Below are positions 3,240 through 53,032 of a stretch of DNA of 64,000 nucleotides, in pieces. The translations under genes were made by a program, and so were the position numbers. The first letter of the stretch is position 1. Every line of letters starts with the position of its first letter. The DNA is taken from assembly GCF_004369205.1 (NCBI RefSeq), contig NZ_QFGA01000002.1:806001-870000 (forward strand). Direction: 5' to 3'. Origin of the DNA: Pelotomaculum schinkii (GTDB lineage: Bacteria; Bacillota; Desulfotomaculia; Desulfotomaculales; Pelotomaculaceae). The notes under the pieces are model-generated. The model saw only the letters and a program-made list of their open reading frames with translations. It was not told where the DNA came from and ran no database searches.

Positions 3240-3676
3240 CCTAACAATAAAAAAACCGCCCCCTCTACAGGGACGGATTATTTCTTTTCCGCGGTACCAC
3301 CCTCTAGTTTATACCCGCTGAGCATAAACCCTCAATACCGTACGGGGCTTGACGCGCCCGATACTGTCTTCCGATAACGGTAGAAGCTCCGGCGACACCT
3401 ACTGGTAAAACGTTCAGCTGCAGTTCCGGGGTGAACTTCAATGGACCCAATTCTGGGAGGGCTTCCAGTCCATCGACCCTCCTTCCCTGAAGAACGCCGG
3501 CCACCTACTTTTCCCCTTCATCACAATTCGTCTATTTTTATAAAATTAGTGAACGGCTAACCTCCTGTAAAGTATGTAGGCCCTTACCGAACCGGTTGCC
3601 TCAAACAGCCTCCAAAAAAATTCGGCGGTTAAAAGCATTTAACCACAACCTTTCCTCAGTTTTTTGGGGACCTTTT
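3240..3676 (-). promoter_or_regulatory. T-box leader of pheST
   Basis: The leader between the promoter and pheS carries the conserved T-box GGTGGTACCGCGG (complement of 3289-3301), followed by a terminator. Uncharged tRNA pairs with the T-box bulge and stabilises the antiterminator. By context the specifier should be a Phe codon; I did not locate the specifier loop with certainty. Confidence 0.93.
3249..3277 (-). terminator. Attenuator terminator of the pheST T-box
   Basis: GC stem CCGTCCC...GGGGGCGG followed by seven T on the minus strand, directly after the T-box sequence. It is the off-state hairpin that competes with the antiterminator. Confidence 0.88.
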
Positions 3677-3683
3677 GGGTTTG

Positions 3684-3712
3684 ATTATACCATAAGCAAA
3701 AATTGATGACAA
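3684..3712 (-). promoter_or_regulatory. Sigma-A promoter of pheST
   Basis: TTGTCA (complement of 3707-3712), a 17-base spacer, then TATAAT (complement of 3684-3689). It lies just before the T-box leader. Near-consensus. Confidence 0.85.
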
Positions 3713-3776
3713 GGAAGTTTACAGAAAAATCGAACCCCGTCCGGCTCCTTAAAAATGTGGAAAAGTCTCTATTTTA

Positions 3777-4574
3777 CTACGTTTGTCGCTGTCTTACGGC
3801 TTCATAGAGAAGGATCGCGGCGGAAATTGCCACATTCAGGGATTCGGCGCGGCCCGGCATCGGGATGCGAGCCAGCTCGGACACCCTGCCCAGTACGGTC
3901 TCGCCAGCCCCAGCCGCTTCTCCCCCAACAGCCAATGCGCAGGGCACGCTCAGGTCACATTCGTAGACAGCTCTGGCCGCCCTGGGTTCGCCGGCTACAG
4001 TTTTTATCCCTCGATCTTCGAGATAATCCATAACCGCTTCTGCCGCGCAGCCCTGTATCACCGGCAGGTGAAAAATCGACCCCATCGTTGCCCGTAGTGT
4101 CTTGGGGTTGTAGATATCCGCAGTGCCTTTCAGCAAAATGACTCCGTCTGCTCCCGCGGCATCCGCCGACCTGATGATGGCGCCGAGGTTGCCCGGGTCA
4201 CGGACCCCGTCCACCAGCGCCAGCAGGGCGGGTTGACCGGTATCGGCCAGTTCCTCCAGAGAGTTGCTCCGCTGCCGAACCACCGCCAGGATTCCCTGGG
4301 GTGTCTCGGTAAATGCCAACTCCTTAAGCAGTGGCTCCTCCACCTCCAGCAGGGCTATCCTCCGGTTGGAGGCATTGCTGAGGAGTCTCTCGCCCCGCCC
4401 GTCCTCCGTAATTTTTTGGGAGTAAACCAGCATTTCCACAGGCCAGGTGGAATGAAGGGCTTCCTCAACAAAACGAATGCCTTCAACCAGAAACTTGCCC
4501 TCTTGGTCCCTGAAGCGCCGCCCTCCCAGCCGTCGCAGGTATTTGACATGCGGATTGTTTTTACCCGGCGACAT
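3777..4574 (-). CDS. TrmH/SpoU-family RNA 2'-O-ribose methyltransferase
   Basis: A 265-aa SPOUT-class methylase, probably modifying 23S rRNA or tRNA with SAM. The N-terminus (NNPHVKYLRRL, FLVEGIRFVEEAL) is the substrate-binding domain. The C-terminal knotted domain shows the family motifs: VDGVRDPGNLGAIIRSADAAG (motif 1), ILLKGTADIYNPKTLRA with MGSIFHLPV (motif 2), and LAVGGEAAG with AESLNVAISAAILLYE (motif 3). The reading frame is open further upstream, but ATG 4574 is preferred because of the GGAGGAGAAGGTGG purine tract just before it and because homology begins there. It lies upstream of and co-oriented with pheST, as in many Firmicutes. The exact target nucleotide cannot be told from sequence. 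Confidence 0.9.
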   Translation of the reverse strand: MSPGKNNPHVKYLRRLGGRRFRDQEGKFLVEGIRFVEEALHSTWPVEMLVYSQKITEDGRGERLLSNASNRRIALLEVEEPLLKELAFTETPQGILAVVRQRSNSLEELADTGQPALLALVDGVRDPGNLGAIIRSADAAGADGVILLKGTADIYNPKTLRATMGSIFHLPVIQGCAAEAVMDYLEDRGIKTVAGEPRAARAVYECDLSVPCALAVGGEAAGAGETVLGRVSELARIPMPGRAESLNVAISAAILLYEAVRQRQT

Positions 4575-4631
4575 CCCGATCCACCTTCTCCTCCATCTCT
4601 GAAAATACACACAGATCGCTTCCAAAAAATG

Positions 4632-4702
4632 CAGCTGTGAATTTATTCGCACAAAAGTTGCATTAGATGCCCAAGTGCGGCGCTGACGCGCCGTTATGCG
4701 AT
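4632..4702 (-). repeat. Dispersed intergenic repeat, copy A
   Basis: The minus strand reads CAATCGCATAACGGCGCGT, then CAGCGCCGCACTTG and AACTTTTGTGCGAATAAATTC. Near-identical blocks occur at 61333-61402 (+) and, in part, at 57754-57815 (-). The element contains the palindromic core GTGCGAATAAATTCGCAC (here slightly mutated) and a GC-rich inner hairpin. It lies between rplT and the methylase gene. Confidence 0.7.
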
Positions 4703-4741
4703 TGTTGACAGGGTGACAAGAACTCCGTCCCCCTGTCAACC
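4702..4741 (-). terminator. GGGGACGG-family hairpin downstream of rplT
   Basis: TGACAGGGTGACA...CCCCCTGTCA forms an inverted repeat after the rplT operon. The same core recurs at 6250, 6530, 48691 and 57843, so this is also a member of a repeat family. No strong T-tract follows on the minus strand, so its role as terminator is inferred. Confidence 0.5.
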
Positions 4742-4880
4742 CCGGGTAAAGAATAGGCATGGTAATTATACCATGCCGGGACTTGCTGGGAAGGTTGTCT
4801 GCGTAAGAACAGCAACCTTGCACTAAAATACAGTTTATGGGAAAACTTTAGCATGGTAATCTATAATGCCCGTTACCTGC

Positions 4881-5234
4881 TTATAGTTTTGCCTTGGCTA
4901 TATCCACCAATTGCCCGAAAGCCTGGGCGTCATTAGTGGCCATATCAGAAAGCATCTTGCGGTTGATATCGACACCGGCCAGTTTCAGGCCGTTCATAAG
5001 GCGGCTGTAGGAAATGCCGTTCATCCTGGCAGCGGCGTTAATCCTGGCTATCCACAACTTGCGAAAGTCGCGCTTTTTCACCCTGCGATCGCGGTAAGCG
5101 TAAACCAGCGACTTCATCACCTGTTGGTTGGCTACGCGGTAAAGTTTACTTTTGGCGCCCCGGTAACCCTTGGCCAACTTAAGTATTTTTCTATGCCTAT
5201 TACGTGAAACCACACTGCTTTTAGCCCGTGGCAT
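4881..5234 (-). CDS. rplT: 50S ribosomal protein L20
   Basis: Ribosomal protein L20, 117 aa, the family length. Begins [26 protein letters not shown], the conserved basic rRNA-binding tail, and continues with a helical core ([22 protein letters not shown]). Start ATG 5234 with an AGGAGG site. It is the last gene of infC-rpmI-rplT. In Bacillus-type organisms L20 represses the operon by binding the infC leader. Confidence 0.98.
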
Positions 5235-5267
5235 ATTACATTCCTCCTGTTTAACAACGTTATGAAT

Positions 5268-5459
5268 TTAAGGCATCAACTTTTTCAGGCGGTTCATATC
5301 GGCCGCGCTTACAATTGTTGATTTGCGCAGGCCGCGTTTCCTCTTGGAGCTCTTTTTACCGAGAATATGGCTGTGAAAAGAATGAGAACCTTTTAGCAAC
5401 CCGGTGGCTGTCTTTTTAAAACGCTTCGCAGCACCGCGGTGGGTCTTAATTTTAGGCAT
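5268..5459 (-). CDS. rpmI: 50S ribosomal protein L35
   Basis: 63 aa, as expected for L35, starting [20 protein letters not shown]. Very basic and ends [16 protein letters not shown] lies before ATG 5459. It sits between infC and rplT with 15- and 33-base gaps, so one transcript is likely. Confidence 0.98.
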
Positions 5460-5474
5460 TGCTGCATCTCCCTT

Positions 5475-5990
5475 CTAGTTTTCTTGCTTCGGCGCCAGGA
5501 TCATAATCATGTTTTTTCCTTCTAGCTTGGGCACTCTTTCAACATTGCTCAGCTCTTTTAAATCTTCCGCCAGTCTTTTCAGCAGCTGCTGTCCGATTTG
5601 GGTATGGACGATCTCGCGCCCGCGGAAGATAACGGTCGCCTTTACTTTATCGCCATCCTTTAAAAAACGGATCGCGTTTTTGGCCTTGACCTCAAAATCG
5701 TGGTCTTCAATATTGGGACGCATCTTGATTTCCTTGACGCTGATTATTTTTTGTTTCTTCCTGGCCTCTTTCTCACGCTTGCTCTGTTCATACTTATATT
5801 TCCCAAAATCCATAATCCTGCAAACCGGGGGTTTGGCGGCAGGGGCAATTTCAACCAGATCCTGCTGCTTCTCCTCCGCGAGTCGCAAGGCATCCCTGCC
5901 GGACATTATGCCGAGTTGGTTCCCTTCGCTGTCTACAACCCTGACTTCCCTCGCCCTGATCTCCTCGTTGATTCGGAAATCTTTTGTAAT
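5475..5990 (-). CDS. infC: Translation initiation factor IF-3, ATT start
   Basis: IF-3 binds the 30S subunit and checks start-codon pairing. The frame from ATT 5990 gives a 171-aa protein beginning (M)[18 protein letters not shown]. It has the N-terminal domain (to about residue 75), the linker [16 protein letters not shown] and the C-domain with [19 protein letters not shown]. The ATT start is chosen because GGAGGTGA lies 7 bases upstream and because infC typically uses this start, through which IF-3 limits its own synthesis. An upstream ATG in frame (6044) would put the start inside the leader hairpin and is unlikely. First gene of the ribosomal operon. Confidence 0.95.
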
Positions 5991-17076: not shown

Positions 17077-17431
17077 ATTTACATTCCACTATGGTTCAAT
17101 CTCAACCATGACCAGGGTGGTCGGTTACTTCACCGAGCCGATTTACATTCCACTATGGTTCAATCTCAACTTTGTCATAAATATCACTCGCTTTCATATC
17201 ATAGATATTTACATTCCACTATGGTTCAATCTCAACTGAACACTACGACGTATATAATGTAACTTATCACAGATTTACATTCCACTATGGTTCAATCTCA
17301 ACAGTAGTTCTGCATAGTTGGAGATTAGTTTTAATCCTATTTACATTCCACTATGGTTCAATCTCAACCCGGTGCAATGCGAGAGTAACCCGGAGATACA
17401 GATTTACATTCCACTATGGTTCAATCTCAAC
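17077..17431 (-). CRISPR. CRISPR array, oldest segment (6 repeats)
   Basis: Six identical 30-bp repeats start at 17077, 17141, 17207, 17273, 17339 and 17402, separated by 33-36-bp spacers. On the plus strand the unit begins ATTTACATTCCACTATGG and ends TTCAATCTCAAC. Read on the minus strand it is GTTGAGATTGAACC...GGAATGTAAAT, like clostridial type I-B repeats that end ATGTAAAT, so transcription runs leftwards and this is the trailer end. The sixth spacer is cut after about 24 bases by an IS3-family end. No repeat decay is seen at the trailer. Confidence 0.97.
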
Positions 17432-17951: not shown

Positions 17952-17989
17952 AATCGACTAAAGAAAAGGAATTGCTCCCTTTCCCTCGT

Positions 17990-18564
17990 CTAAGAACCGT
18001 ACGTGAGAGTTTCCCGCTCATACGGCTCAAGCATTTCTTCACCATTTCTGGCGGCAACCAGTGATTTCAGTTTCATTTTCCTTTTCACGAAATACTCTTC
18101 GTGTATAAAGGGATTTTTAGAAATCTGCAATTTAGGGTGGCGGATGATCTTTATTCTTCTCAGGTTGATAAGACTGTACTCATCTGTCATAAACAACCAT
18201 CTTTTCCCATTCTTTTCATGCCAATATTTGTTCAATCTCCACCATTTACTTTTGTTTGGGTGTCGGTGTTTTGCCCATTGTTGTAATAAAAGATATAGTG
18301 TGTTATTGACGCAAGAAAAGGCTTGACTTGCCACAACATGTCTGTGATAGTTTGTCCATCCTCTAATCACTTGATTTAACCTTCGGATGAGTTCGGATTG
18401 ACATCTGCCTTTCCTTCTTTCAGGATGATAGAAGCACATTTCTTTGTCAGGGTTTTGATGGAATTCTTTGATGGTTTGACAATTAATTTTCCCTTGAACT
18501 TTCGAAATGTCCAACCAAGAAAGTCGAATCCATCGTCTATATGCGTAATCCTTGTTTTCTCTTC
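17990..18564 (-). pseudogene. Group II intron RT/maturase, C-terminal part, frameshifted
   Basis: From the left target duplication the frame reads EEKTRITHIDDGFDFLGWTF, the RT thumb entry, to KTLTKKCASIILKEGKAD. It must then change frame near 18415 to continue as SELIRRLNQVIRGWTNYHRHVVASQAF, the maturase X domain, and on to KWWRLNKYW. The frame change means the protein would be inactive even without the insertions. No HNH endonuclease motif is visible. Confidence 0.8.
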
Positions 18565-18754
18565 GGATAATGTAATTTTGCAGAATCTTTGTCCTAGCGA
18601 TTTGCACAATAATTAGGCTTAAAATTTCTATTCAAACTGCAAAATTTGCACAATTTTTGTTTGGAAAAACTTAAAAATTGCACAATATATGTTTTGCAAA
18701 ATGTATGAGTTAAGGAAAAGGCCGGCCAACGACCGACCCGAAATAGGATAATGG

Positions 18755-19558
18755 TTACATGCCTAATTCAACAGCAGCCTGCCTCACAGCCTCCTCATCA
18801 ATATATTTAAGCAACTTCTGACAGCCAAAGATTAAGCTGGTAGTAGCAAGGTTGTTAATTAAGCGGGGCCAGCCCCGGCTCACTGTAGCAATAGCTTCTA
18901 CGGCAGTGTCTGAAAAGATCGGGTAGTTGGAGCCGGCTAGGCGCATATGGTTCTCCAAGTAATTTTTTGTTTCCTCTTTTGTCAAGGGAGCCATCTTGTA
19001 GCGCATAATTAACCTTTGATTTAAAGGTTGGTTATGGGTCAACGACATTTTAATTGCCAGAGCAGGCATTCCACAGAGTACCAATACAAATGGGTTTTCA
19101 GAGTCCATCGAAAAATTGAACAACAAATGGAGGTCACTGAAAAACTTCGTACTGGCCAACTGCAGTTCGTCCAGAATAATAACAGGAACAACTTTCTTGC
19201 CGGAATAGTTGTTTTGGATAGCCTCCTGAATTTGATTGAACAAATCCACTTTGCGGAAAGCAGGTTCAAGACCCAGGCTAAAAGCCAGCCCCCTGTAGAA
19301 ATCCGTAACAGTAACCGTAGAAAGCGGGAAGTAGGCCACCCGGTAGAGAGAGGGATTGAGGGAAACCACAAAAGTACGCAGACCGGAAGTTTTGCCGGAA
19401 CCGGGTTCGCCCACCACCATGCCGATACCACGGCTGTGTTTTAGATAATTTAGCCGGGCCAGAAGTTCCTGGTGGGAAGATGACAGGTACATCTCCTCTG
19501 CTTTGATATCTTTCGCAAAAGGTCTGGCAGCAAGGGAGTAGAAGGCGGTAAACATCAT
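18755..19558 (-). CDS. ExeA/TniB-like AAA ATPase of the transposon
   Basis: 267 aa. Walker A GEPGSGKTSGL (residues 50-60) and Walker B VPVIILDELQLAS (about 125-137), then the arginine-bearing NQRLIMRYKMAPL, a layout shared by ExeA, TniB and IS21 IstB-like partners. Such ATPases select target DNA and activate a DDE transposase. The GTG/ATG start at 19558 overlaps the stop of the transposase gene by 4 bases, so the two are translationally coupled. Confidence 0.85.
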   Translation of the reverse strand: MMFTAFYSLAARPFAKDIKAEEMYLSSSHQELLARLNYLKHSRGIGMVVGEPGSGKTSGLRTFVVSLNPSLYRVAYFPLSTVTVTDFYRGLAFSLGLEPAFRKVDLFNQIQEAIQNNYSGKKVVPVIILDELQLASTKFFSDLHLLFNFSMDSENPFVLVLCGMPALAIKMSLTHNQPLNQRLIMRYKMAPLTKEETKNYLENHMRLAGSNYPIFSDTAVEAIATVSRGWPRLINNLATTSLIFGCQKLLKYIDEEAVRQAAVELGM

Positions 19559-20850
19559 TTACCACTCTCCTTTTTTAAAAGGGCTTCATGAAAAGATAAT
19601 ACCTGGGGAGAAATATCATTTTCACTGCGGTTGCGCTTCATTCTGGCGTTATCCGCCAATTGAACCGGTAAACCCTTACCTACAAACTTGTCATTAGCAT
19701 AAATCAATATCTTGCTTAAGTCGTTTGGTTCAAACCGCACCTCCACCTTCTGGCCGATTAGAGCGGGCGGCACTTCGAAGAGCCTACCCCCGATAGAGAC
19801 GGTGGCATCATTGTGAACCCGGCGGGACTCCCTTTTTAAGAATAACTCCCGGACCAAATCCGGCTCCCGGGCGAACTTAACCTGGTTTACCAAGCTCAAG
19901 TACTTGTCGAGGGGAGACATACCCAGGGATGAGTGAACACGTCGATGGTAGTCTTCCTCCAGCCATTTTCCAAAAGCACGGTTCAATTCATCCAGGGATG
20001 TCACCGGATAAGACAGAAGTGGCAGGAAACGTTCTCTTACCGTACGAAAAATCCGTTCGATTTTCCCCTTGCTGGGTGCATCGAAAGGCTCGGTATGGGA
20101 AACCGTGGTACCCATTTGGGCACAGGCCCAGTGAAATAATTGAGAGCGGTAAACCTTACCGTTGTCCAGGTAAACAATCTTGGGTATACCCCGGCGAATA
20201 ACCGCTTCGATATAGACTTTTTTCATGGCGTCGAAATTTTGTTCAAAAGAAAACTGGGCGAAAGTAACCAAACGGGAACAGTCATCAATAAAGGCAAAAA
20301 GATAAGTAGGCTTCTTCTTACCATTGACTATGACATAAGGGCCTGTCATCATATCGCCCTGCCACATCCGGTTTACCTCATCGTAGGCAAAGCGCTTGCG
20401 GTCCTTAACCACGACTTTATCCGCCAGGGGTTTGGCCAGATTTTTCTTCTTGAGAAAGCGGTAGACCGAATGGTAAGAAACCTCGGAGCGCAAGATTAGC
20501 CCTTCTTTGGCCATTTGGTCGTAAAGAAGCATAACGCTCAAGCCTGGGTTTTCATGCCTAAAAGCTATAATTTTCTCAGCAAGGTCCTCGCTGATTACTC
20601 TTGACTGTCCCTTGTCTTTACGGTTTTGAGGCTTAAGCCCTTCCAGATTGTCTTTGCGGTAGTCCAAAAGCCAACGGCGAAAGGTTTTGTCACAGAACTC
20701 TTTTCTTCCGTAGTAGGGGACGTCATAGACTAGGGCGGAAACCTTCTCCAGGTAGACTTTCGGATTATCAACTTGATTGTTTAGCAAGGGAGCGATCAAG
20801 CCGAAACGGAAAAGGGCCACCTCCATTTTCTGCTCTTCGGTCAAAGCCAT
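19555..20850 (-). CDS. DDE (rve-type) transposase of the transposon
   Basis: 431 aa from ATG 20850, which has GGAGGTG 7 bases upstream. The N-terminal part (residues 1-150) is helix-turn-helix (CDKTFRRWLLDYRKDNLEGLKP). The integrase core shows the catalytic triad: D in MWQGDMMTGPY, D in IVYLDNGKVY, and E in SKGKIERIFRTVRERFLPLL. A Mu-type C-terminal domain follows (VSIGGRLFEVPPALIGQKVEV). It cuts and joins the element ends with its ATPase partner. The frame is intact, so this transposon may still be active. Confidence 0.9.
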   Translation of the reverse strand: MALTEEQKMEVALFRFGLIAPLLNNQVDNPKVYLEKVSALVYDVPYYGRKEFCDKTFRRWLLDYRKDNLEGLKPQNRKDKGQSRVISEDLAEKIIAFRHENPGLSVMLLYDQMAKEGLILRSEVSYHSVYRFLKKKNLAKPLADKVVVKDRKRFAYDEVNRMWQGDMMTGPYVIVNGKKKPTYLFAFIDDCSRLVTFAQFSFEQNFDAMKKVYIEAVIRRGIPKIVYLDNGKVYRSQLFHWACAQMGTTVSHTEPFDAPSKGKIERIFRTVRERFLPLLSYPVTSLDELNRAFGKWLEEDYHRRVHSSLGMSPLDKYLSLVNQVKFAREPDLVRELFLKRESRRVHNDATVSIGGRLFEVPPALIGQKVEVRFEPNDLSKILIYANDKFVGKGLPVQLADNARMKRNRSENDISPQVLSFHEALLKKESGK

Positions 20851-20988
20851 TTTTAAAGCACCTCCAACAGATGTATTGGAGGATAACCGGTTAACCTCAC
20901 GGTGAAAATTATATGGTAAAAAGGCCATATACCGCCATGCAAAAGTTGTGTGGATAAAATATACTTGCCGCATACCCCAGGGGAGATG

Positions 20989-21531
20989 TTAAAATGATCT
21001 TGCCATAAAGTTAGCCAAGATCCGGTTGGATAAACTATTGACCTCTGCCAAGGTCGTTTCACTTGCCCGAGTGAAGTTTAACCGGCGGACTATCTTTATG
21101 GCCCCTTTGTTTTTATCCGCAGGAAGTCGCTCTCGCCAGTGCTGTTCTCTTAAAGCACTGACAATGGCGGGGGTATTGGCTAAGAAGCGCTTATGGTAAA
21201 AAGCGGCTAGTTGGCGGCCAACGGCAGCAGTTGTTTTTCTAAAACTCTCCCGCAGGCTTTTTAATATGGTATTACGGTTATGTTGGAAGTAAGGCAGAAG
21301 AAACCAGGGCAAAAGAGATACCGTCTTTAAGCAGGCAGGACACAGGTACCGGCAGATGCTGATACGGTAACATCGTTTGTTGGCTAGTGCATTGCGTTCA
21401 TAGAAGCCGTGCCGTTTCAGCTTGACTGCAGAATTGCAGCAAGGGCACTTGATAAGTACGGGAAAGACCACTGAGTATCTGTCCTTGGCATAGATTGATA
21501 GCTTAACAGGTAGATTCCAAGGAATTTGCAA
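20989..21531 (-). CDS. DUF6431-like zinc-finger protein of the transposon
   Basis: 180 aa. Two CxxC pairs (CPCCNSAVKLKRHGFYER and YLCPACLKTVSLLPWFLLPY) form a zinc-ribbon-like N-terminus, and the rest is basic and helical (FRKTTAAVGRQLAAFYHKRF). It always seems to travel with this type of DDE/ATPase pair; its role, perhaps end binding or target choice, is unknown. The start is TTG 21531 with GGGGAGG upstream. It is the first gene of the three-gene unit. Confidence 0.7.
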   Translation of the reverse strand: MQIPWNLPVKLSIYAKDRYSVVFPVLIKCPCCNSAVKLKRHGFYERNALANKRCYRISICRYLCPACLKTVSLLPWFLLPYFQHNRNTILKSLRESFRKTTAAVGRQLAAFYHKRFLANTPAIVSALREQHWRERLPADKNKGAIKIVRRLNFTRASETTLAEVNSLSNRILANFMARSF

Positions 21532-21657
21532 AATAATAACCTCCCCAAAGAAACTGCAAATATTTTAGCAGATTGGGGAGGGTTCTGAATCATCTTTTAG
21601 ATAATCAATGTGCAAAAAAATCCTGCCTGCCAGGACTACTTTACGAGCAAGATTACA

Positions 21658-22317
21658 GGATAAAGTTAATCCTCGATTTTCAAGGAACTGACCGACTATC
21701 TCTTTGAGTTCTTCCGCTATTTCTCTTGTATTCGCAGTAATGATGAAGTCATCCGCATATCGCACCAAATTTACTTTGGTTTTTGCTCGATAATGGTTTT
21801 CTACTTTACCTTTTGAGTTCCGATGGTATTTATCCTGAATTAGTTTTTCAAGACCATCTAGTGTCATATTTGCATAAAGACTGGAAATGGCTCCTCCTTG
21901 CGGCGAACCTGAGACCGTAGGAAAGAGATTTCCTTGGTATATGAATCCTGACTTCGAGAACTGCTTCATAATTCTTTTATCCATTGGTATATTATCTTGT
22001 AGCCAATCATGGTTGATGTTGTCAAAGCAGCCTTTAATATCCCCTTCTAATATCCAGGCAGGGGAACACTTTCTTGCTAATACACAAAATATCTGTTCAC
22101 AGGCATCTTTAGCACTTCTTCCCTTACGAAAACCAAAAGAAACATGGTCTCCTGTAGTTTCGGCTACTGGTTCGAGCGCTAGTGCATACAATGTCTGCAT
22201 GGCTCTGTCGTACATGGTGGGAATTCCCAGCGGTCGTTTCTTATTTTTCCCTTTCTTTTCAATGTAGACTCTTCTAAGGGGTTTGGCCTTGTAGCTATTA
22301 AGCCCCTTAATTGAGTT
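21658..22317 (-). pseudogene. Group II intron RT, central catalytic part
   Basis: The frame reads SYKAKPLRRVYIEKKGKNKK, then RPLGIPTMYDRAMQTLYALALEP, DIKGCFDNINHDWL, SGSPQGGAISSLYANMTLD and NLVRYADDFIITA. These are RT blocks 1-5, including the catalytic YADD. It stops being RT-like exactly at the target duplication of the three-gene transposon (21658). The upstream edge meets the second IS3-type element near 22320. Confidence 0.85.
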
Positions 22318-22367: not shown

Positions 22368-22694
22368 ATGAAACGTAAAAGATATCCTCAGGATTTCAAA
22401 GAGCAGCTTGTTAAAGAAGCCCAGGAAGTCGGTAATGCTCTTTCAGTTGCCAAGCGGCACGGAATTAGTGAAAAATCATTATACCGCTGGATTCAAGAAT
22501 CTAAATACAAAGCTTGGAAGGAAACGGATGGAAATGCTAAAAAGGTAGCGGCATACATTCCATCACCCCAGGAATTCAAGCAAATAGAAAAGGAAAATAA
22601 CACTCTTAAGAAGTTGCTTGGTGAAAAAGATTTAGAGATTTCCATACTTAGGGACCTGGTAAAAAAGACTCGCCCGGGCTATCCGACAGAATAG
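22368..22694 (+). CDS. IS3-family OrfA (helix-turn-helix)
   Basis: 108 aa. MKRKRYPQDFKEQLVKEAQEVGNALSVAKRHGISEKSLYRWIQESK is the HTH_Tnp_1 domain, followed by a leucine-zipper-like coil (FKQIEKENNTLKKLLGEKDLEISILRDLVKK). The ATG lies just after GGAGGGG, inside the inverted repeat CCATACCCCC...GGAGGGGTATGG, which could mask the site when transcribed from outside. The A AAA AAG heptamer at 22661-22667 allows a -1 shift into orfB. Confidence 0.88.
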   Translation: MKRKRYPQDFKEQLVKEAQEVGNALSVAKRHGISEKSLYRWIQESKYKAWKETDGNAKKVAAYIPSPQEFKQIEKENNTLKKLLGEKDLEISILRDLVKKTRPGYPTE

Positions 22695-22735
22695 AAATAG
22701 CCAACAAGTGGATTGCTCGGGGACATGCATGCAAA

Positions 22736-23626
22736 ATGGTATTGAAAATTGTTGGTGTTCTTGAAGCAACTTACTACCATCGAAAAAAATCAGAGAGTCA
22801 GACTTCCAAAAAACATAGCCCAAGAAGCGGAAGGCCCAACACCATATATTCTTGGACAAAGGACCGGCAGCTGGTAAGTGATGAACAAATCAAGGAATGG
22901 TTGATGGAACTGGTTGCCGGGGAAGAAAGTACTTACGGATACCGGAAATTAGCTATTTGCCTGCGCCGGCAGCACAACCTGATAATTAACCATAAAAAAG
23001 TTTACAGGCTTTGCAAAGAGCTAGATATACTGGCGCCACAGCGGCGGATTAAGGTTAATCACCCCAGACGCTTGGCAGCCAATCGCCAGATTACAGTCTC
23101 TGATCAACTATGGGAAGTAGACTTAAAGTATTGCTACGTTGCTAAAGAAGACCGTTTTTTCTACCTGATGAGCTTCATTGATGTTTATGACCGAATGATT
23201 GTAGATTACCACCTGGGACTATCTTGTGAAGGGAAACATGCCGCCCAGATCCTGCAACGGGCTTTGTGGAAACGGCAGCTCTTTGAAACTGATATCCGAC
23301 CAGTCATCCGAAGCGATAACGGTCCCCAATTTATAAGCCATGTGTTCGAAGAGGCCTGTGTGAAATTTACTGTCGAACATGAGCGGATTCCACCTAAAAC
23401 ACCGAATAAAAATGCCCATATAGAGTCTTTTCACGCCTTACTTGAGTTAGAATGTTTGAGTCGGTACGAATTTTCATCATATCAAGAAGCCTATCAGATA
23501 GTTAGTGAATACATTCAGTTTTATAATGAACGGCGTATACATGGTAGCTTGTATGACTTTTCGCCTTACGAATTCCGGCAGAGACTGCGTGCAGGTGAAC
23601 TCAAACCCTTTATCATTAGAGTTTAG
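22736..23626 (+). CDS. IS3-family OrfB transposase (DDE)
   Basis: 296 aa from ATG 22736; the frame is open upstream to the slip site, so the natural product is an OrfA-OrfB fusion. rve core: D in QLWEVDLKYCYV, D in PVIRSDNGPQFIS, E in KNAHIESFHALLELE, with the K/R of the IS3 group following. HTH_21 block (ESTYGYRKLAICLRRQHNLIINHKKVYRL) precedes the core. The reading frame is intact. Confidence 0.9.
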   Translation: MVLKIVGVLEATYYHRKKSESQTSKKHSPRSGRPNTIYSWTKDRQLVSDEQIKEWLMELVAGEESTYGYRKLAICLRRQHNLIINHKKVYRLCKELDILAPQRRIKVNHPRRLAANRQITVSDQLWEVDLKYCYVAKEDRFFYLMSFIDVYDRMIVDYHLGLSCEGKHAAQILQRALWKRQLFETDIRPVIRSDNGPQFISHVFEEACVKFTVEHERIPPKTPNKNAHIESFHALLELECLSRYEFSSYQEAYQIVSEYIQFYNERRIHGSLYDFSPYEFRQRLRAGELKPFIIRV

Positions 23627-23984
23627 CTAATTGCCTCTTAAGATACCGGATGCCGGGACCAGAGCTTGTTCCCCTTTAATTAAGAGGTTTCGCCTTGACC
23701 ATTTGGCCCAGACATGGCTGGCAACCGCATAGCGGCTTGGCCTTGACCGCCGTGGCAGAATACTAGACCGGGGGCGGGCGAGATAATCAATGATACCGTC
23801 TACCGTACCCTCGCCCGCCCCTGATTCGACAACCTCACGGCGAGTCAAGGCTTGCCAGTCATGTCGCCTTAGCTGTTCACAATAAATGAATTGAGGCTTA
23901 TTGGTTTTCCTGTTCCGTGAGCAATATTTATTAATTCTATGTAAACAAGAGAATAAGGGGAGTAGACTCTAAAATTAGGGGTTT

Positions 23985-24344
23985 AAACCGGTAGTGCTTA
24001 TCTGAAAGTGTTAACACCGCTTTCATTTTTGAAGATGATGTTGACCATAACTTTTTGTCTATGCCAGAAGTGTTTTTCCCCTTGTTCGAAGTTACTTTCT
24101 TTACCGCATAGGATTTTGCACAAAATGAATGGGTTAGTAAGTATTGTAACCTTTTGACTTTGTTCTTGTCGCCCTTCACTGTTGCCTTGGCAATTCTGGT
24201 CTGTAGCCTATTCACATCTTTTTGCACCCGCGTCCAGTCAATGGATTCCCATTGAGCAGCCAGTGTCTTTTTGTCTTTTAGCCTCTCGGTTTTATCCGTC
24301 GTTGAGTTACTAAAATTCATAAGCTTACTGTCCTTTCCTGCCAA
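23985..24344 (-). pseudogene. Group II intron RT, N-terminal part
   Basis: Begins MAGKDSKLMNFSNSTTDKTE and shows the RVT_N domain typical of chloroplast-like intron proteins: QWESIDWTRVQKDVNRLQTR, RLQYLLTHSFCAKSYAVKKVTSN, GIDKKLWSTSSSKMKAVLTLSD. It ends at HYRFKPL, where the second IS3-type element follows. The central part begins with a different version of the same segment (SYKAKPL), so the junction is not a clean insertion and may involve two intron copies. Confidence 0.8.
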
Positions 24345-24891
24345 GAAATACCATAGGATAAGTCAGCACCCTTTCAGGTTAGGGCAAAGCTTGAACCCCT
24401 ATCTTCTTTCATTACAAAAGTAGCGTTTGCTTTTTATCCTTTTCTTCTGCCCTCTATGCCGTTTCTTTTCCTTACGGTTAGATACCTCATTTCATTATCC
24501 GTTTCAGTTTCTCGTGAGGAGCATATAGGGGTTACCAAGTTCCGCATGATACATAATTGTGAAAGCCTTAGGAGCCACCTTTAAACCGGGAGTTCTTCAT
24601 CCATTCGCATTGGTTTGCCAGTTAGCCGTTGCTCGACTCCTTACCATTTTGGTCGAAGCGTTTCAGCCTATTTCGCTTCCTCCAGCGTAACGATTCCTAC
24701 AGTGGTTCACTTTACGTTCTCCATAGCTCTCTTACTCTAGCAGTTATCCCAGTTTTAGGCTACTCGGATTTCCACATTGTCTTGCGAGCTTTCTAACCCA
24801 GACGTTACCATCTGCGCTAGTCGCAATAGAGTTACCCCGAATGGATAGGGTAGCCTTTCGGCAATATATCAAGCGACTTCTTGTCGCGCAT
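24345..24891 (-). ncRNA. Group II intron ribozyme 5' domains
   Basis: About 550 non-coding bases between the intron 5' end and the RT start, the normal place for domains I-IV. The end reads TGCGCGACAAGAAGTCGCTT then GATATATTGCCGAAAGGCTA, the typical opening of this intron class. The 5' splice site has lost part of GUGYG, so splicing is doubtful. Confidence 0.7.
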
Positions 24892-25014: not shown

Positions 25015-25800
25015 TATGGTTCAATCTCAACATCCAGGGCGACACCGGTTGAAGCTATCTCACCAACATTTACATTCCACTATGGTTCAATCTCAACTAG
25101 GATAGCCTCTGAGAGAGCGACCGGTTCGACGGATTTACATTCCACTATGGTTCAATCTCAACTCCATGGATTAACAACTGAACCTCATTCCATTTGTATT
25201 TACATTCCACTATGGTTCAATCTCAACTGCTACAAAAAGTTTCAAAAAGGGCTTGACATGATAATTTACATTCCACTATGGTTCAATCTCAACTTCCAGT
25301 TAGCCATGGATAGCGCCAGGAGTTCGCATTTACATTCCACTATGGTTCAATCTCAACTAACTCAGGTTTTCGTCGTGGTAGCTACAGTACCCATTTACAT
25401 TCCACTATGGTTCAATCTCAACCAAAACAGGAAAGGTGCCCAAATTAATTCTACTAGATTTACATTCCACTATGGTTCAATCTCAACTCAAGGGCAGTAT
25501 CTTATCCAAAAGGTGAATATATATTTACATTCCACTATGGTTCAATCTCAACGTAGTGCAGCGGCTATTTATGTTTCTGATGATTAATTTACATTCCACT
25601 ATGGTTCAATCTCAACTGATGGAGGTAGATGATGCCATCTAAGTGGAACTAATTTACATTCCACTATGGTTCAATCTCAACGGAGGTAACAGTAGCCCCA
25701 TTCACCTTGACCTCAATGTATTTACATTCCACTATGGTTCAATCTCAACTAATCCTTCAAGTGTATACTCGTCACTGTGAATATATTTACATTCCACTAT
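25015..25800 (-). CRISPR. CRISPR array, middle segment (11 full repeats, two partial)
   Basis: The segment starts with the last 17 bases of a repeat (TATGGTTCAATCTCAAC, 25015-25031) fused to IS copy 1. Full repeats begin at 25068, 25133, 25198, 25264, 25328, 25393, 25458, 25523, 25587, 25652 and 25720. Spacers are 34-38 bp. The last repeat (25785-25800) is cut after ATTTACATTCCACTAT by IS copy 2. The repeat sequence is the same as in the other two segments, so all belong to one array. Confidence 0.97.
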
Positions 25801-25866
25801 AAACCTGACCCGATTTGATGGACACGGTAAATGGCTGGTACAATAAAACCAGTGGAGGTGTCCATC

Positions 25867-26151
25867 ATGAAACGTTACGATAAGCATTTTAAAGAAGAAG
25901 CGGTCCGCCTGGTAGTAGAGTTGGGGCGATCCGTGGCAACGGTGGCCAAAGAACTCGGTATCCATGAGAACACCCTGCACAAATGGGTTAGTCAGTATAA
26001 AGAACATAAGGAAAACGCTTTTCCAGGCAGCGGCAATCTACTGCCAGAGGACGCAGAAACCAGGCGTTTAAAAAAAATGATAGCTGATTTACAAGAGGAA
26101 AACGCCATTCTAAAAAAGGCCACGGCCATCTTCGCAAGACACCAGAAATAG
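25867..26151 (+). CDS. IS3-family OrfA, copy 2
   Basis: 94 aa from ATG 25867 with GGAGGTG upstream. MKRYDKHFKEEAVRLVVELGRSVATVAKELGIHENTLHKWVSQYK is the HTH domain, followed by a coiled coil ending LQEENAILKKATAIFARHQK. The A AAA AAG at 26112-26118 (ATTCTAAAAAAGGCC) is the -1 frameshift site leading into orfB. Confidence 0.9.
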   Translation: MKRYDKHFKEEAVRLVVELGRSVATVAKELGIHENTLHKWVSQYKEHKENAFPGSGNLLPEDAETRRLKKMIADLQEENAILKKATAIFARHQK

Positions 26152-26189
26152 CTTATAAGTTTATTAATCAGCACCGCTTCAAATTTCGG

Positions 26190-27014
26190 GTGGAGAAGAT
26201 GTGCCAGGTTTTTGGAGTCTCTCGAAGCGGTTACTATGCTTGGCTGAAAAGGCCGGAAAGCCGGCGAAAAATCCGGAATAAAGAACTAATTAAAAAGATC
26301 CGTAAGGTTCATCAGATTTCCCGGGGTACTTATGGTAGTCCGAGAATAACCAGGACCTTGAAGAAACAAGGCATTACTTGCAGCCGGAACCGGGTGGCCC
26401 GCCTGATGCGGGAGAACGATATAGCCGCCAAGACAAGGAGAAAATTTAAGGCTACCACTAACTCAAAGCACCATTATCCGGTTGCTGAAAACATTGTTAA
26501 TCAGAACTTTACTGCCAGCCATCCTAATCAGGTCTGGGTTGCTGATATTACATATGTCGCAACGGATGAAGGGTGGTTATACCTTGCAGCTATTGAAGAC
26601 CTGTTCCAAAGAAAGATTGTGGGCTGGGCTATGGACAGTACAATGACTCGCCAGTTGGTCCTGGATGCTCTCAGACAGGCAGTTTGGCGGTATCGGCCAT
26701 CAGCAGGACTTATTCATCACTCAGACCGCGGGAGTCAATATGCCAGTCATGAATACCAGCAAGCTTTAAAGGACTACGAAATGAACGCCAGTATGAGCCG
26801 CAAAGGTAATTGTTATGACAACGCCTGTATGGAATCGTTTTTTGGAACCCTGAAGAGGGAACTGATTTATGGTACCCGATTTAAAACAAGAGCTGAAGCC
26901 CGTCAAGCCATCTTTGAATATATTGAAGTCTTTTACAACCGGGTTCGGCTGCATTCAGCCCTTGGATATATGTCGCCAGTCGAATACGAACAATCCTTTA
27001 AAACAGCAGCGTAA
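26190..27014 (+). CDS. IS3-family OrfB transposase, copy 2 (intact)
   Basis: 274 aa from 26190; the same frame continues upstream (RKTPEIAYKFINQHRFKFRVEK) to the slip site, so it is normally made as a fusion with OrfA. HTH_21 region VHQISRGTYGSPRITRTLKK. DDE core: D in QVWVADITYVATDEGW, D in LIHHSDRGSQYAS, E in [15 protein letters not shown]. Intact, so this copy could mobilise copy 1. Confidence 0.92.
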   Translation: MEKMCQVFGVSRSGYYAWLKRPESRRKIRNKELIKKIRKVHQISRGTYGSPRITRTLKKQGITCSRNRVARLMRENDIAAKTRRKFKATTNSKHHYPVAENIVNQNFTASHPNQVWVADITYVATDEGWLYLAAIEDLFQRKIVGWAMDSTMTRQLVLDALRQAVWRYRPSAGLIHHSDRGSQYASHEYQQALKDYEMNASMSRKGNCYDNACMESFFGTLKRELIYGTRFKTRAEARQAIFEYIEVFYNRVRLHSALGYMSPVEYEQSFKTAA

Positions 27015-27288
27015 GTGGCCGTTCATCGTAGCGAAGCGAAGACCCTTTACATGGAGAATGCCCGTGTTAGCCTTGATTGGCAAGGGCCATAAGCAAAGCG
27101 ATACTGGCCCCTTGGTCCTTGGCAACACGGGTGCGAGGCTCCATGTCAAGGGCGGCCACGGCTCTTATTCGATACTTGGTCGAACATGAGAAAGAATTTG
27201 CTAAGCCTCATTCCCAGCCTAAAATTGAAAATCTGTGAAAACAGAAGATAATCCGCCATTTTCTATGTCTATTTTAATGGGGCAAGCT

Positions 27289-30200
27289 CACTATGGTTCA
27301 ATCTCAACACAATATGACCTTGCTGGAAGAATCTATTTTGTCGAAATTTACATTCCACTATGGTTCAATCTCAACTCAAAGTAGGTGGATAAGTTTAGCC
27401 TATAATTTAATTTACATTCCACTATGGTTCAATCTCAACCACCAACGCGATGCCGTCATGTGGGCGATAAAAGGATTTACATTCCACTATGGTTCAATCT
27501 CAACCAAACAAATATACCACATACTCATACGAATATTAAGATTTACATTCCACTATGGTTCAATCTCAACTTTAGTTTCCTCGGCTGCTGCTCCTTTTGC
27601 GGCCAATTTACATTCCACTATGGTTCAATCTCAACTATGTGAAAGGGGCGCCATGCTCTCCCCTGTGGCGAATTTACATTCCACTATGGTTCAATCTCAA
27701 CTTAATGTCGCCTCCTCTCTGTCAATCATAAGGACAGATTTACATTCCACTATGGTTCAATCTCAACCGGCCGCTGTATCTGGAGTTGAGCGAGCTCAAG
27801 CATATTTACATTCCACTATGGTTCAATCTCAACTGAACGCCAGCTCAAGGAAAAACCCATCGAAACCAATTTACATTCCACTATGGTTCAATCTCAACGA
27901 AACCTTAATGAACGCGAAAATCATTAACGGCGAATTTACATTCCACTATGGTTCAATCTCAACATGTTCCGGTTAAATCTATCCTGTTCATAGACAACAA
28001 TTTACATTCCACTATGGTTCAATCTCAACGGGTGCCGATAGGCTCTGAAAGAATAAGCAAGGAATTTACATTCCACTATGGTTCAATCTCAACCCTGGCA
28101 GGCTCCGGTCAGGGGCTTTCTTATGAGGATTTACATTCCACTATGGTTCAATCTCAACTTACTAATAATATACTGTCAATTATTATTTTTATTTATTTAC
28201 ATTCCACTATGGTTCAATCTCAACGACGCTGACAGGGTAGATAGGGGTAGAACAGTTCAATTTACATTCCACTATGGTTCAATCTCAACTTAATTAAGGA
28301 GGTGCTAAATAATGGGTTTATTCAAATTTACATTCCACTATGGTTCAATCTCAACAAACCAGGGAGGTTTTTAATTATTTCACTAAATTCATTTACATTC
28401 CACTATGGTTCAATCTCAACCTAAATTCGTCTACGCCTTGGGTCTAGGTATGGGCATTTACATTCCACTATGGTTCAATCTCAACGCTTTTCAGTGGGAG
28501 GTTATTGACGGGCTTAGAGGATTTACATTCCACTATGGTTCAATCTCAACGGATTGCGACCAGCCTCAATCACAATACGATAAAGGATTTACATTCCACT
28601 ATGGTTCAATCTCAACGTGGGCACGAGGAAGTTGTCAACCTTATAGGTCCATTTACATTCCACTATGGTTCAATCTCAACTCAGTTTGCCATCATTGTAC
28701 AATCTTTCAAGTGTATTTACATTCCACTATGGTTCAATCTCAACCAGAGAGGCCGCACCTGCGGCTGGTGGTTGACAAATTTACATTCCACTATGGTTCA
28801 ATCTCAACAGATACCGGGGCGGCCGGAGATAACCGAGATCAGCAAATTTACATTCCACTATGGTTCAATCTCAACTCAAACAACTGCTGCTTCTTTTTCT
28901 CGTATTTCTCCATTTACATTCCACTATGGTTCAATCTCAACTGAAGGCGCTGCCTGGGTTGAAGACTGAGCAGGAAGATTTACATTCCACTATGGTTCAA
29001 TCTCAACTTCGCTGAGATGCCTTAATCTTACGCTGACATGTATTTACATTCCACTATGGTTCAATCTCAACAAAAGATTCAATTTAACCAGCAGCGCAGT
29101 GAAATCATTTACATTCCACTATGGTTCAATCTCAACGCATTCCTTCGCAAGTTAATCAACGGAGATATTTTCATTTACATTCCACTATGGTTCAATCTCA
29201 ACTGCCACTGACGGAGACGGCAAACTTCACAAGCTAATTTACATTCCACTATGGTTCAATCTCAACTCAGTTACGTTACAAACATGTACATGCGTTCTGT
29301 ATTTACATTCCACTATGGTTCAATCTCAACTTAAGCCCGGCAGCAGCACCGGTTGCCATGCTAAATTTACATTCCACTATGGTTCAATCTCAACTCGCCT
29401 CCAGGAACGTCCAGGCTGCCATTAGCGAATTTACATTCCACTATGGTTCAATCTCAACGTTATAAGCCTATCTGTTACCTTTAATATTTCTTCATTTACA
29501 TTCCACTATGGTTCAATCTCAACCTAATTATCCAATCAGCCAGCCTCCACTTGCTGCCATTTACATTCCACTATGGTTCAATCTCAACTACCGGCGACAC
29601 AAACGCTCAGCCTGGTTTGTATTAATTTACATTCCACTATGGTTCAATCTCAACGGTATGCGTACCCCATCATGTCTTCAATTTTCTGCATTTACATTCC
29701 ACTATGGTTCAATCTCAACGAGCTCCGGGTGGAAATCATCAAGGCACTAATCGAATTTACATTCCACTATGGTTCAATCTCAACTTAAGCGCCCCGACCG
29801 CCTCAGTCCAAATACCTTCATTTACATTCCACTATGGTTCAATCTCAACGTTAAAAAATGGATGCAGCAACAGCAGCAATCTAATTTACATTCCACTATG
29901 GTTCAATCTCAACTAGCTATCTCATAGCGGGCTCCCTCATCAGCTGGCATTTACATTCCACTATGGTTCAATCTCAACGGAGAATACCAGGCTGACAATC
30001 CAGCAGCTTACGGATTTACATTCCACTATGGTTCAATCTCAACGGTATCATGAGGTTGAAGGTGACGGGGAAATCGACAATTTACATTCCACTATGGTTC
30101 AATCTCAACGGAACCATCGTTCTTTTGTCCGATACGGCAGACCAAATTTACATTCCACTATGGTTCAATCTCAACTTTGGTGATGGTGCTAAATGTATGA

Positions 30201-30305
30201 GTACCCCTGGATTTACATTCCACTATGGTTCAATCTCAACGAACATCTTTAAAACTACCGTCCCAAACCATCTGCATTTACATTCCACTATGGTTCAATC
30301 TCAAC
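27289..30305 (-). CRISPR. CRISPR array, leader-proximal segment (46 full repeats, one partial)
   Basis: Starts with the 20-base rest of the split repeat (27289-27308), then 46 repeats from 27346 to the one at 30276-30305. Period 64-67 bp; spacers 34-37 bp. All repeats are identical as far as read. The high-coordinate end adjoins the leader and cas2, so new spacers enter at about 30306 and the newest lies between 30240 and 30276. Short open frames across this segment are only translated repeats. Confidence 0.98.
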
Positions 30306-50512: not shown

Positions 50513-50726
50513 TTTGGCCTCACTCCAGATTCCATATTATTTTAATTTAGCCATAATTTATATTGAACGAAACCGCTCCGCGGTGGATAGAAACCCAAGA
50601 TAGTATCAAAGCGAAATGATCCGATCTGCTCATAGTAGATACAAAAGTCATGGCTAACACAAAACAACCCCTTTAAAATGAGAATGCGGCCTGTCCGCAA
50701 TATCAAACAAAGGGGTTGTTTATTTA

Positions 50727-51599
50727 ATGATGACTAACCGTCAGGCGCTGCAACGCCTGAAAGCTGACATCCAGCTTAGGGGGCTATCCAGAAACACACT
50801 CGATTCCTATACGACTCATGTTGGGATCTTCCTTAATCACTTCAAAAAACCTATCGAGAAGCTCAATGAAATGGACGTTCGAAGTTTCCTGGGACACTTG
50901 ATTGTCGAAAAGAAATTATCGCCAGGCACGGTCAATGTTTACAGTGCTTCCATTCGCTTCTTCTTCGCAGTTACGCTGAACCGGACGATGAACTATCTAC
51001 AAATTCCACGCCTTAAGCGGCCTAAGAAGCTACCGGAGATTTTAACGCGGAATGAAGTTGCAGAACTAATTTCCCAGACAACGAATGCCAAACACAAAGC
51101 CCTGCTCTTAATGGCGTACGGTTCCGGCTTACGAGTCAGCGAACTTGCCAGTCTCAAAACGACGGATATTGATTCGGCATCCATGCGGGTTTTGGTGCGC
51201 GGCGGCAAAGGCCAAAAGGATCGCTATACTCTTCTGCCCGAAAGCGCTTTATTCGCGTTGCGTGACTATTGGCGCAAGTACCGCCCGAAAAGCTCAGATG
51301 GATACATTTTTCCCGGAATCAAAAATGTTGGGCATATCACAACAAGCGCAGTAGCACGAGCGATTAAAGAAGCGCTTGCCAAGACAGCTATCCAAAAGAG
51401 TGTGTCGCCGCATACCCTTCGGCACTGTTTCGCCACTCACTTATTAGAGGACGGGCTAAGTCTACTCCAAATAAAGGCTTTGCTCGGACACGCCAGCATT
51501 TCCTCAACCACGATCTATCTTCATCTGGCAAACACCACGAACGGAATAACCAGTCCGGCGGACAACATGCCTCAGAAGTTTGTGGACTGCCCATTATGA
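50727..51599 (+). CDS. Tyrosine recombinase/integrase of the IS91-type element
   Basis: 290 aa. N-terminal SAM-like core-binding domain (LSRNTLDSYTTHVGIFLNHF). Catalytic residues in order: R in YGSGLRVSELASLKTTD, K in VRGGKGQKDRYTLLP, HxxR in SPHTLRHCFATHLLEDG, H/W in LLGHASISST, and Tyr in TTIYLHLA. The ATG follows AAAGGGG, which lies inside the hairpin arm. The stop overlaps the transposase start by 4 bases (ATGA). Confidence 0.9.
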   Translation: MMTNRQALQRLKADIQLRGLSRNTLDSYTTHVGIFLNHFKKPIEKLNEMDVRSFLGHLIVEKKLSPGTVNVYSASIRFFFAVTLNRTMNYLQIPRLKRPKKLPEILTRNEVAELISQTTNAKHKALLLMAYGSGLRVSELASLKTTDIDSASMRVLVRGGKGQKDRYTLLPESALFALRDYWRKYRPKSSDGYIFPGIKNVGHITTSAVARAIKEALAKTAIQKSVSPHTLRHCFATHLLEDGLSLLQIKALLGHASISSTTIYLHLANTTNGITSPADNMPQKFVDCPL

Positions 51600-52717
51600 T
51601 TGAAGTGCAGGACATCTTTCGGGAACATGGCGATGAATACTTGCGCCAGCATCCGCTTAATACCGTTCAAATAAAGGCATATCGCGCTATCTTGAACTGC
51701 CGGACTCATGCTTTGGGCGGGCATATAGATACATGTGACCAATGTGGCCATCAACGTATCTCTTATAATTCCTGCCGAAACAGACATTGCCCCAAATGCC
51801 AAATGCTTGCCAAAGAACAATGGATCGAAAGCCAGGAACGTTGCCTGCTTAACATTGGCTATTTCCATGTCGTGTTTACGGTGCCGAACGAATTGTATAT
51901 GGTATTCCGGCAGAACCAGGAAACGATGTACACTTTATTCTTCAAAGCTGTCTCGGAAACCTTGTTAGAGTTAGGCCAAAATCCAAAATATCTCGGCGCC
52001 AAACTCGGAGTAACCGCAATTCTCCACACATGGGGGCAGAACCTTCTGTATCATCCCCACATCCATTGTGTTGTACCGGGCGGCGGGTTGACCAGCGCCG
52101 GTCATTGGAAAAACTCGCGCAAGAAGTTCTTCATTCCGGTTAAGGTATTGTCCAAGAAATTCCGGGGGAAATTTCTCGCTCTCATGCGTGCGGCTCAATT
52201 ACGCTTCGATGAATCTACGAACAAACTCAATAGTTCGAGAGAATATGCCCTCTTTCTGCAGGATTTGTATAACAAGGACTGGGTAACCTATTGCAAACCG
52301 CCCTTCGGCAATACCGGCAAGGTGATTCAATATTTAAGCCGCTACACACATCGCGTGGCTATTTCCAACAATCGGATTCTGGCGCTTCAAGATGATAAAG
52401 TCACATTTAGTTGGCGGGACTATGCCGACCATAACAAGGTCAAGCAGATGACTATTACAGCCGAAGAATTTATCCGCCGCTTTATGCTCCATGTACTGCC
52501 TCGAGGATTCCGGAAGATACGACACTACGGACTTTTGGCTTCCGGAGGGAAAACCAAACGGATACAGTTATGCCGGCAACTTACGAATACACCTTTTAGC
52601 ATATTCTCTAAGCCGCGTTCATTATTCGAAATCCTCATTGACAAGTTCAATGATACATTTCGTAAATGTCCCTGCTGCAGAATAGGAATGATGATACGCG
52701 CATCTCCTCTTCCGTAA
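51596..52717 (+). CDS. IS91-family transposase (HUH, Y2)
   Basis: 373 aa. N-terminal zinc-binding domain (CRTHALGGHIDTCDQCGHQRISYNSCRNRHCPKCQ) and the HUH motif in LLYHPHIHCVVPGGGL. Tyrosines follow in VIQYLSRYTHRVAISNNRI. It ends KCPCCRIGMM. Such enzymes move one strand by rolling-circle-like transfer from ori to ter. The frame looks intact. Confidence 0.92.
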   Translation: MIEVQDIFREHGDEYLRQHPLNTVQIKAYRAILNCRTHALGGHIDTCDQCGHQRISYNSCRNRHCPKCQMLAKEQWIESQERCLLNIGYFHVVFTVPNELYMVFRQNQETMYTLFFKAVSETLLELGQNPKYLGAKLGVTAILHTWGQNLLYHPHIHCVVPGGGLTSAGHWKNSRKKFFIPVKVLSKKFRGKFLALMRAAQLRFDESTNKLNSSREYALFLQDLYNKDWVTYCKPPFGNTGKVIQYLSRYTHRVAISNNRILALQDDKVTFSWRDYADHNKVKQMTITAEEFIRRFMLHVLPRGFRKIRHYGLLASGGKTKRIQLCRQLTNTPFSIFSKPRSLFEILIDKFNDTFRKCPCCRIGMMIRASPLP

Positions 52718-53032
52718 AAACAAATTCCTTATACAAAAAAGCCCCTTCTATGGGGGAGGGGGAAACTATGCCCATCGACAGGCGAATTTCCCAATAATGA
52801 CCCTGTTCTTTGACTGAGATTTCGCCCCATAACATCGGAACCCTTTTAGCGCCAGAAATTCTGCAACTTATACAGTTCCTTTTTCCCCATAGCACCTACC
52901 GACATCGGCGGTTCCGTTCAATCAAATTATCTGAAGCCCTACGTAGCCTCTGCTTACATGGGGTTTCTTTTTTGGGCTTCAGATAATTTGCTATTCATTA
53001 TGATAACAAATGAAACCTGTTCGTTTAACCGT

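Follow-up and report, generated by a model that had tools for sequence, protein, structure and literature searches.

A three-gene transposon of Pelotomaculum schinkii and its widespread, apparently distinct family with a DUF6431 zinc-ribbon protein

A complete transposon of 3087 bp lies at positions 18571-21657 of the stretch of Pelotomaculum schinkii DNA analysed here (contig NZ_QFGA01000002.1; all 64,000 nucleotides of it are called the window). It is a real, intact member of what is apparently a widespread, distinct and unnamed family of transposons, in which the genes for a DUF6431 protein, a transposase and an ATPase travel together. To judge from gene content, DUF6431 almost certainly belongs to the transposition machinery. 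On balance, we favor the view that these elements are autonomous transposons of the Mu/Tn7/Tn552 class, forming a family of their own in which DUF6431 is an obligate, DNA-binding partner of the ATPase with low specificity, perhaps acting on the target side.

The transposon and the site that it occupies

The following features make up the element and its borders.

18565-18570: left copy of the target-site duplication, GGATAA (direct reading)
18571-18700: ATPase-side transposon end, with the TGTAAT terminus (18571-18576) and subterminal TTTGCA/TGCAAA repeats
18755-19558, minus strand: AAA+ ATPase of the ExeA/TniB/MuB type, 267 aa (AAA_22, E 8.6e-23)
19555-20856, minus strand: DDE transposase, 433 aa from 20856 (rve, 7.7e-14; Mu-transpos_C, 8.7e-12)
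20989-21531, minus strand: DUF6431 protein, 180 aa, TTG start (PF20020, 3.8e-9), with a zinc ribbon and a helical C-terminal half
21525-21657: DUF6431-side transposon end, with subterminal TTTGCA repeats and the ATTACA terminus (21652-21657)
21658-21663: right copy of the target-site duplication, GGATAA (direct reading)

The three frames, all on the minus strand, are open and follow the order DUF6431-transposase-ATPase (D-T-A); a longer transposase frame is open up to 20973. A preliminary description had reported an intact element with TGTAAT..ATTACA ends, a 6-bp duplication and three open genes, and its coordinates proved exact. The catalytic residues of the transposase (D168, D231 and E267, with a 35-residue spacing) were invariant when seven relatives were compared. 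TTTGCA/TGCAAA hexamers occur 10 times in the 360 bp of both ends, versus once in the 2727 bp of the interior and about once expected in shuffled ends. Tn7-type ends are known to have their transposase sites arrayed in this way. On the DUF6431 side, the repeats extend into the beginning of the DUF6431 gene. The open reading frames between the ends encode no TniQ, TnsA or resolvase, and 3087 bp leave no room for a further gene.

The same genome contains a second copy (G000:C4) of 99.6% identity, flanked by its own 6-bp duplication, AGCTGG. Given this copy with its own duplication, and the same anatomy in independent copies from many genomes, the element of the window is not a chance arrangement. 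It has probably been active recently. The second copy is broken by later insertions, and that of the window is the only intact one found in this genome. An element of 2438 bp, which by reading encodes a tyrosine recombinase and an IS91-like zinc transposase, is present in three identical copies (window 50562-53001; locus L054, 4956-7393 and 14172-16611); the second DUF6431 transposon is broken by two of them.

The target of the window transposon is the reverse transcriptase (RT) gene of a group II intron, as the preliminary description had stated: when the flanks are joined minus one copy of the duplication, the RT frame is restored. The remains of this host are as follows.

17953-18030, minus strand: 3' catalytic domain of the host group II intron (Rfam RF00029)
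17990-18570, minus strand: maturase (GIIM) part of the same RT, on the other side of the insertion (PF08388, 4e-19)
21664-22215, minus strand: RT domain of the interrupted intron protein (PF00078, 1.2e-27; joined frame)
23937-24344, minus strand: RVT_N, N-terminal part of the RT, separated by an IS3-type insertion (PF13655, 1.8e-32)
24716-24852, minus strand: 5' region of the host group II intron (Rfam RF02012)

The transposon is not the only interruption of the host RT gene, which an IS3-type element (open reading frames at 22368-23626) splits as well. From its flanks, the intron itself appears to sit in an IS3 fragment. The surroundings are a CRISPR array with 63 copies of the repeat ATTTACATTCCACTATGGTTCAAT (17077-17426 and 25068-30284), broken by a 7.6-kb nest that consists of the IS3 fragment, the group II intron, the DUF6431 transposon and another IS3. 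The array is broken a second time near 25750-27345, where an IS3-type orfA is found.

Gene content and affiliation of the family

We collected 80 loci, spread over many phyla, by searching with a transposase alignment only. DUF6431 was found upstream of the transposase in all but four of these; three of the four are cut by a contig end (L144, L193, L199) and the transposase of the other is truncated (L170). A census of all fetched loci gave 110 with DUF6431, 4 that were cut and 3 that were flagged. Two of those flagged (L179 and L188) do contain DUF6431, overlapping an extended transposase frame. At L203, a second transposase-ATPase pair without a DUF6431 of its own (3393-5694) lies beside a DUF6431-transposase pair without an ATPase of its own, and the two are possibly nested or fused elements. 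DUF6431 comes first in the gene order of all the intact elements that we examined, down to streamlined ones of 3.0 kb, which bears out its earlier designation as third subunit. Within the order, PF20020 scored above the cut-off in 39 of 101 genomes, and within the phylum in 114 of 398 sampled genomes. Plasmid records from Geobacillus and Streptomyces show the same D-T-A order, annotated there only as "DUF6431", "IS481 family" or "DDE-type", and "AAA family ATPase". We found DUF6431 named in a single paper, an unrelated one; Faure 2023 (PMC10293859) mentions neither "DUF" nor "ExeA".

The elements are compact, with a median length of 3249 bp, and the shortest, which measure 2986 bp and have 95 bp left after the ATPase, are free of cargo. 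A small fourth open reading frame behind the ATPase was considered as a core gene and rejected, being absent from the window and from most compact elements. Such a frame does occur in some lineages (82 aa in G010; loci L058, L059 and L060, with relatives in L066, L130 and L133), and other elements have unrelated small frames in this position. Two family copies in G437 (L268 and L272) contain inserts of their own, about 1.65 and 1.9 kb long.

The transposase profile matched TnsB in the PDB at 3.7e-29, followed by IstA of IS5376 at 9.7e-16, and Pfam assigns the protein its own HTH domains (HTH_32, HTH_29). The ATPase matched the phage DNA transposition protein phrog_296 (1.7e-17) and, weakly, the MuB-type chain 8xvb (E 0.0075). 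It matches neither PF11426 nor PF05621, the TnsC models used in a survey of Tn7-like elements (PMC8649781). With an rve core plus Mu_C and a D-D-35-E triad, an adjoining AAA+ protein of the MuB/TnsC/IstB kind, and TGT..ACA ends with subterminal repeats, the element has the features of the Mu/Tn7/Tn552 superfamily, and at this level the earlier label Tn7/Mu-like is sound.

Within the superfamily, the D-T-A elements differ from each of the known groups that we compared. They share with Tn7 and Tn7-like elements a TnsB-like transposase, TGT..ACA ends and subterminal repeats, but lack TnsA, TnsD/TniQ, TnsE, cargo and a fixed site, and their duplications are mostly of 6 bp rather than 5; in the strict sense they are not Tn7-like. 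Tn552 and Tn552-like elements likewise have a MuA/TnsB-type transposase followed by a MuB-type ATPase, with no TniQ in the records seen, but they have no DUF6431, and in the comparison records they carry, beside the transposase, a serine resolvase that the window element lacks. The Tn402/Tn5053 group (TniA-TniB-TniQ) also combines a DDE transposase and an AAA+ ATPase with a third protein that has a zinc motif; there, however, this protein is TniQ, as in L376, to which DUF6431 shows no relation, and the DUF6431-first order differs. IS21 (IstA-IstB) resembles the D-T-A elements in its helper ATPase of MuB type and its compact, cargo-free build, but has no third gene, and its IstA sequences are distant in the tree. 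In this tree of transposases, a quick version, the DUF6431-linked sequences form one group (SH-aLRT 92) apart from the Tn552-type, TniA/TniQ and IS21 sequences included. In one long-branched member of the group, from Cupriavidus (L369), the third protein is another one, rich in cysteine, and does not match DUF6431 significantly.

Insertion sites

We delimited 75 insertions by their target duplications, assigning the targets partly with Pfam and partly by reading translations; the ends called automatically at L183, L192, L285 and L286 were discarded as false. The duplications measured 6 bp in 58 cases, 7 bp in 13, 5 bp in three and 8 bp in one, with a weak bias N-Y-W-W-R-N (T/C at position 2 and A/G at position 5; chi-square 21 and 22). 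No target site is common to the 75 insertions, and the copies within one genome (G046) occupy unrelated loci. The preliminary description had suggested that the zinc protein might be a target selector like TnsD/TniQ. Its position as third subunit and its zinc binding would suit a TnsD-like selector of a fixed attachment site, but these dispersed sites, together with the failure to detect homology between DUF6431 and a TniQ, make such a role very improbable, and we reject it. That description had also named random insertion sites and active copies lacking the third gene as observations that would count against it. The sites are indeed dispersed, yet no active-looking copy without the third gene was found.

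Of the 75 insertions, 7 hit a group II intron RT gene (the window, L054, L163, L166, L264, L267 and L272), 4 a CRISPR array (L058, L066, L137 and L250), 14 an IS gene, one cas7 and two phage-like genes; the other 47 are in ordinary genes or intergenic. Since most relatives are inserted elsewhere, the group II intron RT is weakened as a specific target. Intron RT genes are hit more often than the roughly 0.28 times expected from uniform insertion in the genomes with counted RTs (P 6e-7 for the six hits other than the window copy). In T. wiegelii, five of seven D-T-A insertions are in intron, IS or array genes, versus none of eight for the control ISLre2 (Fisher P 0.007, a post hoc comparison with an element that has its own site bias). 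DUF6431 might accordingly steer insertion not to a sequence but to selfish DNA and non-translated arrays, that is, to group II introns, IS genes and CRISPR arrays. We consider this unlikely. These are also places where insertions survive, and the P value for the introns becomes 0.003 if one fifth of the genome is permissive and 0.03 if one eighth is. Moreover, unrelated elements have inserted there too (the IS3 that shares the window intron, an insert of 1.66 kb in one of the G437 introns, several in the window array), and 47 of the 75 sites are ordinary genes or intergenic. The excess in introns, IS genes and arrays may mostly reflect survival in harmless DNA. There is a similarly slim chance that the element senses, by means of DUF6431, some physical feature that all three kinds of target share, such as R-loops or transcripts that are structured or untranslated. 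If steering of this kind were true, the transposon would make its home in immunity arrays and selfish DNA, and the copying of a host intron could then multiply it too.

Two group II introns of T. wiegelii (L228 and L229) have the transposon at the identical position in the RT gene. They share a block of 5.13 kb at 99.8% that ends at the intron ends, and a different hairpin lies ahead of each copy. This suggests either that the transposon was already inside when the intron was copied or that gene conversion carried the insertion from one intron copy to another. A pair of near-identical blocks, likewise bounded by the intron ends, is found in G437 (L358 and L359), but with the other, 1.66-kb insert.

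The DUF6431 protein and its proposed role

The DUF6431 protein scores 36.7 bits against PF20020 (Pfam gathering cut-off 26.6). In its AlphaFold model (pLDDT 86.6), residues 25-78 or so form a zinc ribbon, and the second half of the chain is helical. The protein had been described as having two zinc ribbons; a zinc protein it is, but the model has a single ribbon built of two CxxC knuckles. A structure search with the whole protein gave nothing significant, only weak zinc-ribbon matches, the best being NrdR (Z about 4), and the C-terminal half had no structural match even when modelled alone. TniQ was tried as a homologue and rejected: hhalign gave a probability of 0.3% against one TniQ (that of L376), and no Pfam TniQ model matched the window proteins. 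The N-terminus of ISL3 transposases (Zn_ribbon_ISL3 + HTH_Tnp_ISL3) scores weakly with PF20020 in Pfam and can be aligned with DUF6431 over about 100 residues (hhalign E 4e-5, with a probability of only 70%). In ISL3, this zinc ribbon and HTH are fused to a different DDE transposase, whereas in DUF6431 they stand alone.

Pairwise distances of DUF6431 correlate with those of the ATPase (partial Spearman 0.47, 95% 0.34-0.59) more than with those of the transposase (0.17, 95% 0.02-0.34), and the former correlation was the higher in 99.7% of bootstraps; the correlation with the ATPase may reflect rate differences. Mainly because its distances track the ATPase more closely, an indirect argument, we place DUF6431 with the ATPase, on the target side. 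The minimal machinery would then comprise the three proteins. Through its own HTH domains, the transposase would bind the subterminal TTTGCA-type repeats, and it would join the TGT..ACA ends to a target cut with a 6-bp stagger, a catalytic step presumed from the anatomy seen at the ends and duplications. The ATPase, by analogy with its MuB/IstB/TnsC-like relatives, would load on target DNA and activate the transposase. DUF6431, obligate by co-occurrence, would be a zinc-ribbon subunit and a putative DNA-binding protein. We tentatively propose that it works on the target side, coupled to the ATPase, as an adaptor or nucleator of low specificity in the place that TniQ holds in Tn5053 and Tn7. 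Because neither TnsA nor a resolvase is present, transposition is probably replicative.

A different function deserves serious consideration, although we think it somewhat doubtful: DUF6431 could bind the ends, assist in transpososome assembly or repress the operon, and have nothing to do with target choice. The nearest detectable homology, to the DNA-binding N-terminus of ISL3 transposases, agrees with this. So does the position of the gene, first in the operon with the end repeats over its start, which is a natural spot for autoregulation, and target sites are alike whichever lineage of DUF6431 the element carries. On the other hand, a transposase with HTH domains of its own does not need DUF6431 for end binding, the divergence of DUF6431 follows the ATPase more than the transposase, and if DUF6431 did no more than repress the operon, some elements should have lost it.

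The D-T-A elements thus represent a large transposon family, defined by its anatomy, whose third subunit is neither TniQ nor a resolvase. DUF6431 gains a functional context, and elements of 3.0-3.6 kb offer a compact, self-contained system for studying how a MuB-like ATPase may be regulated by a protein of a new kind.
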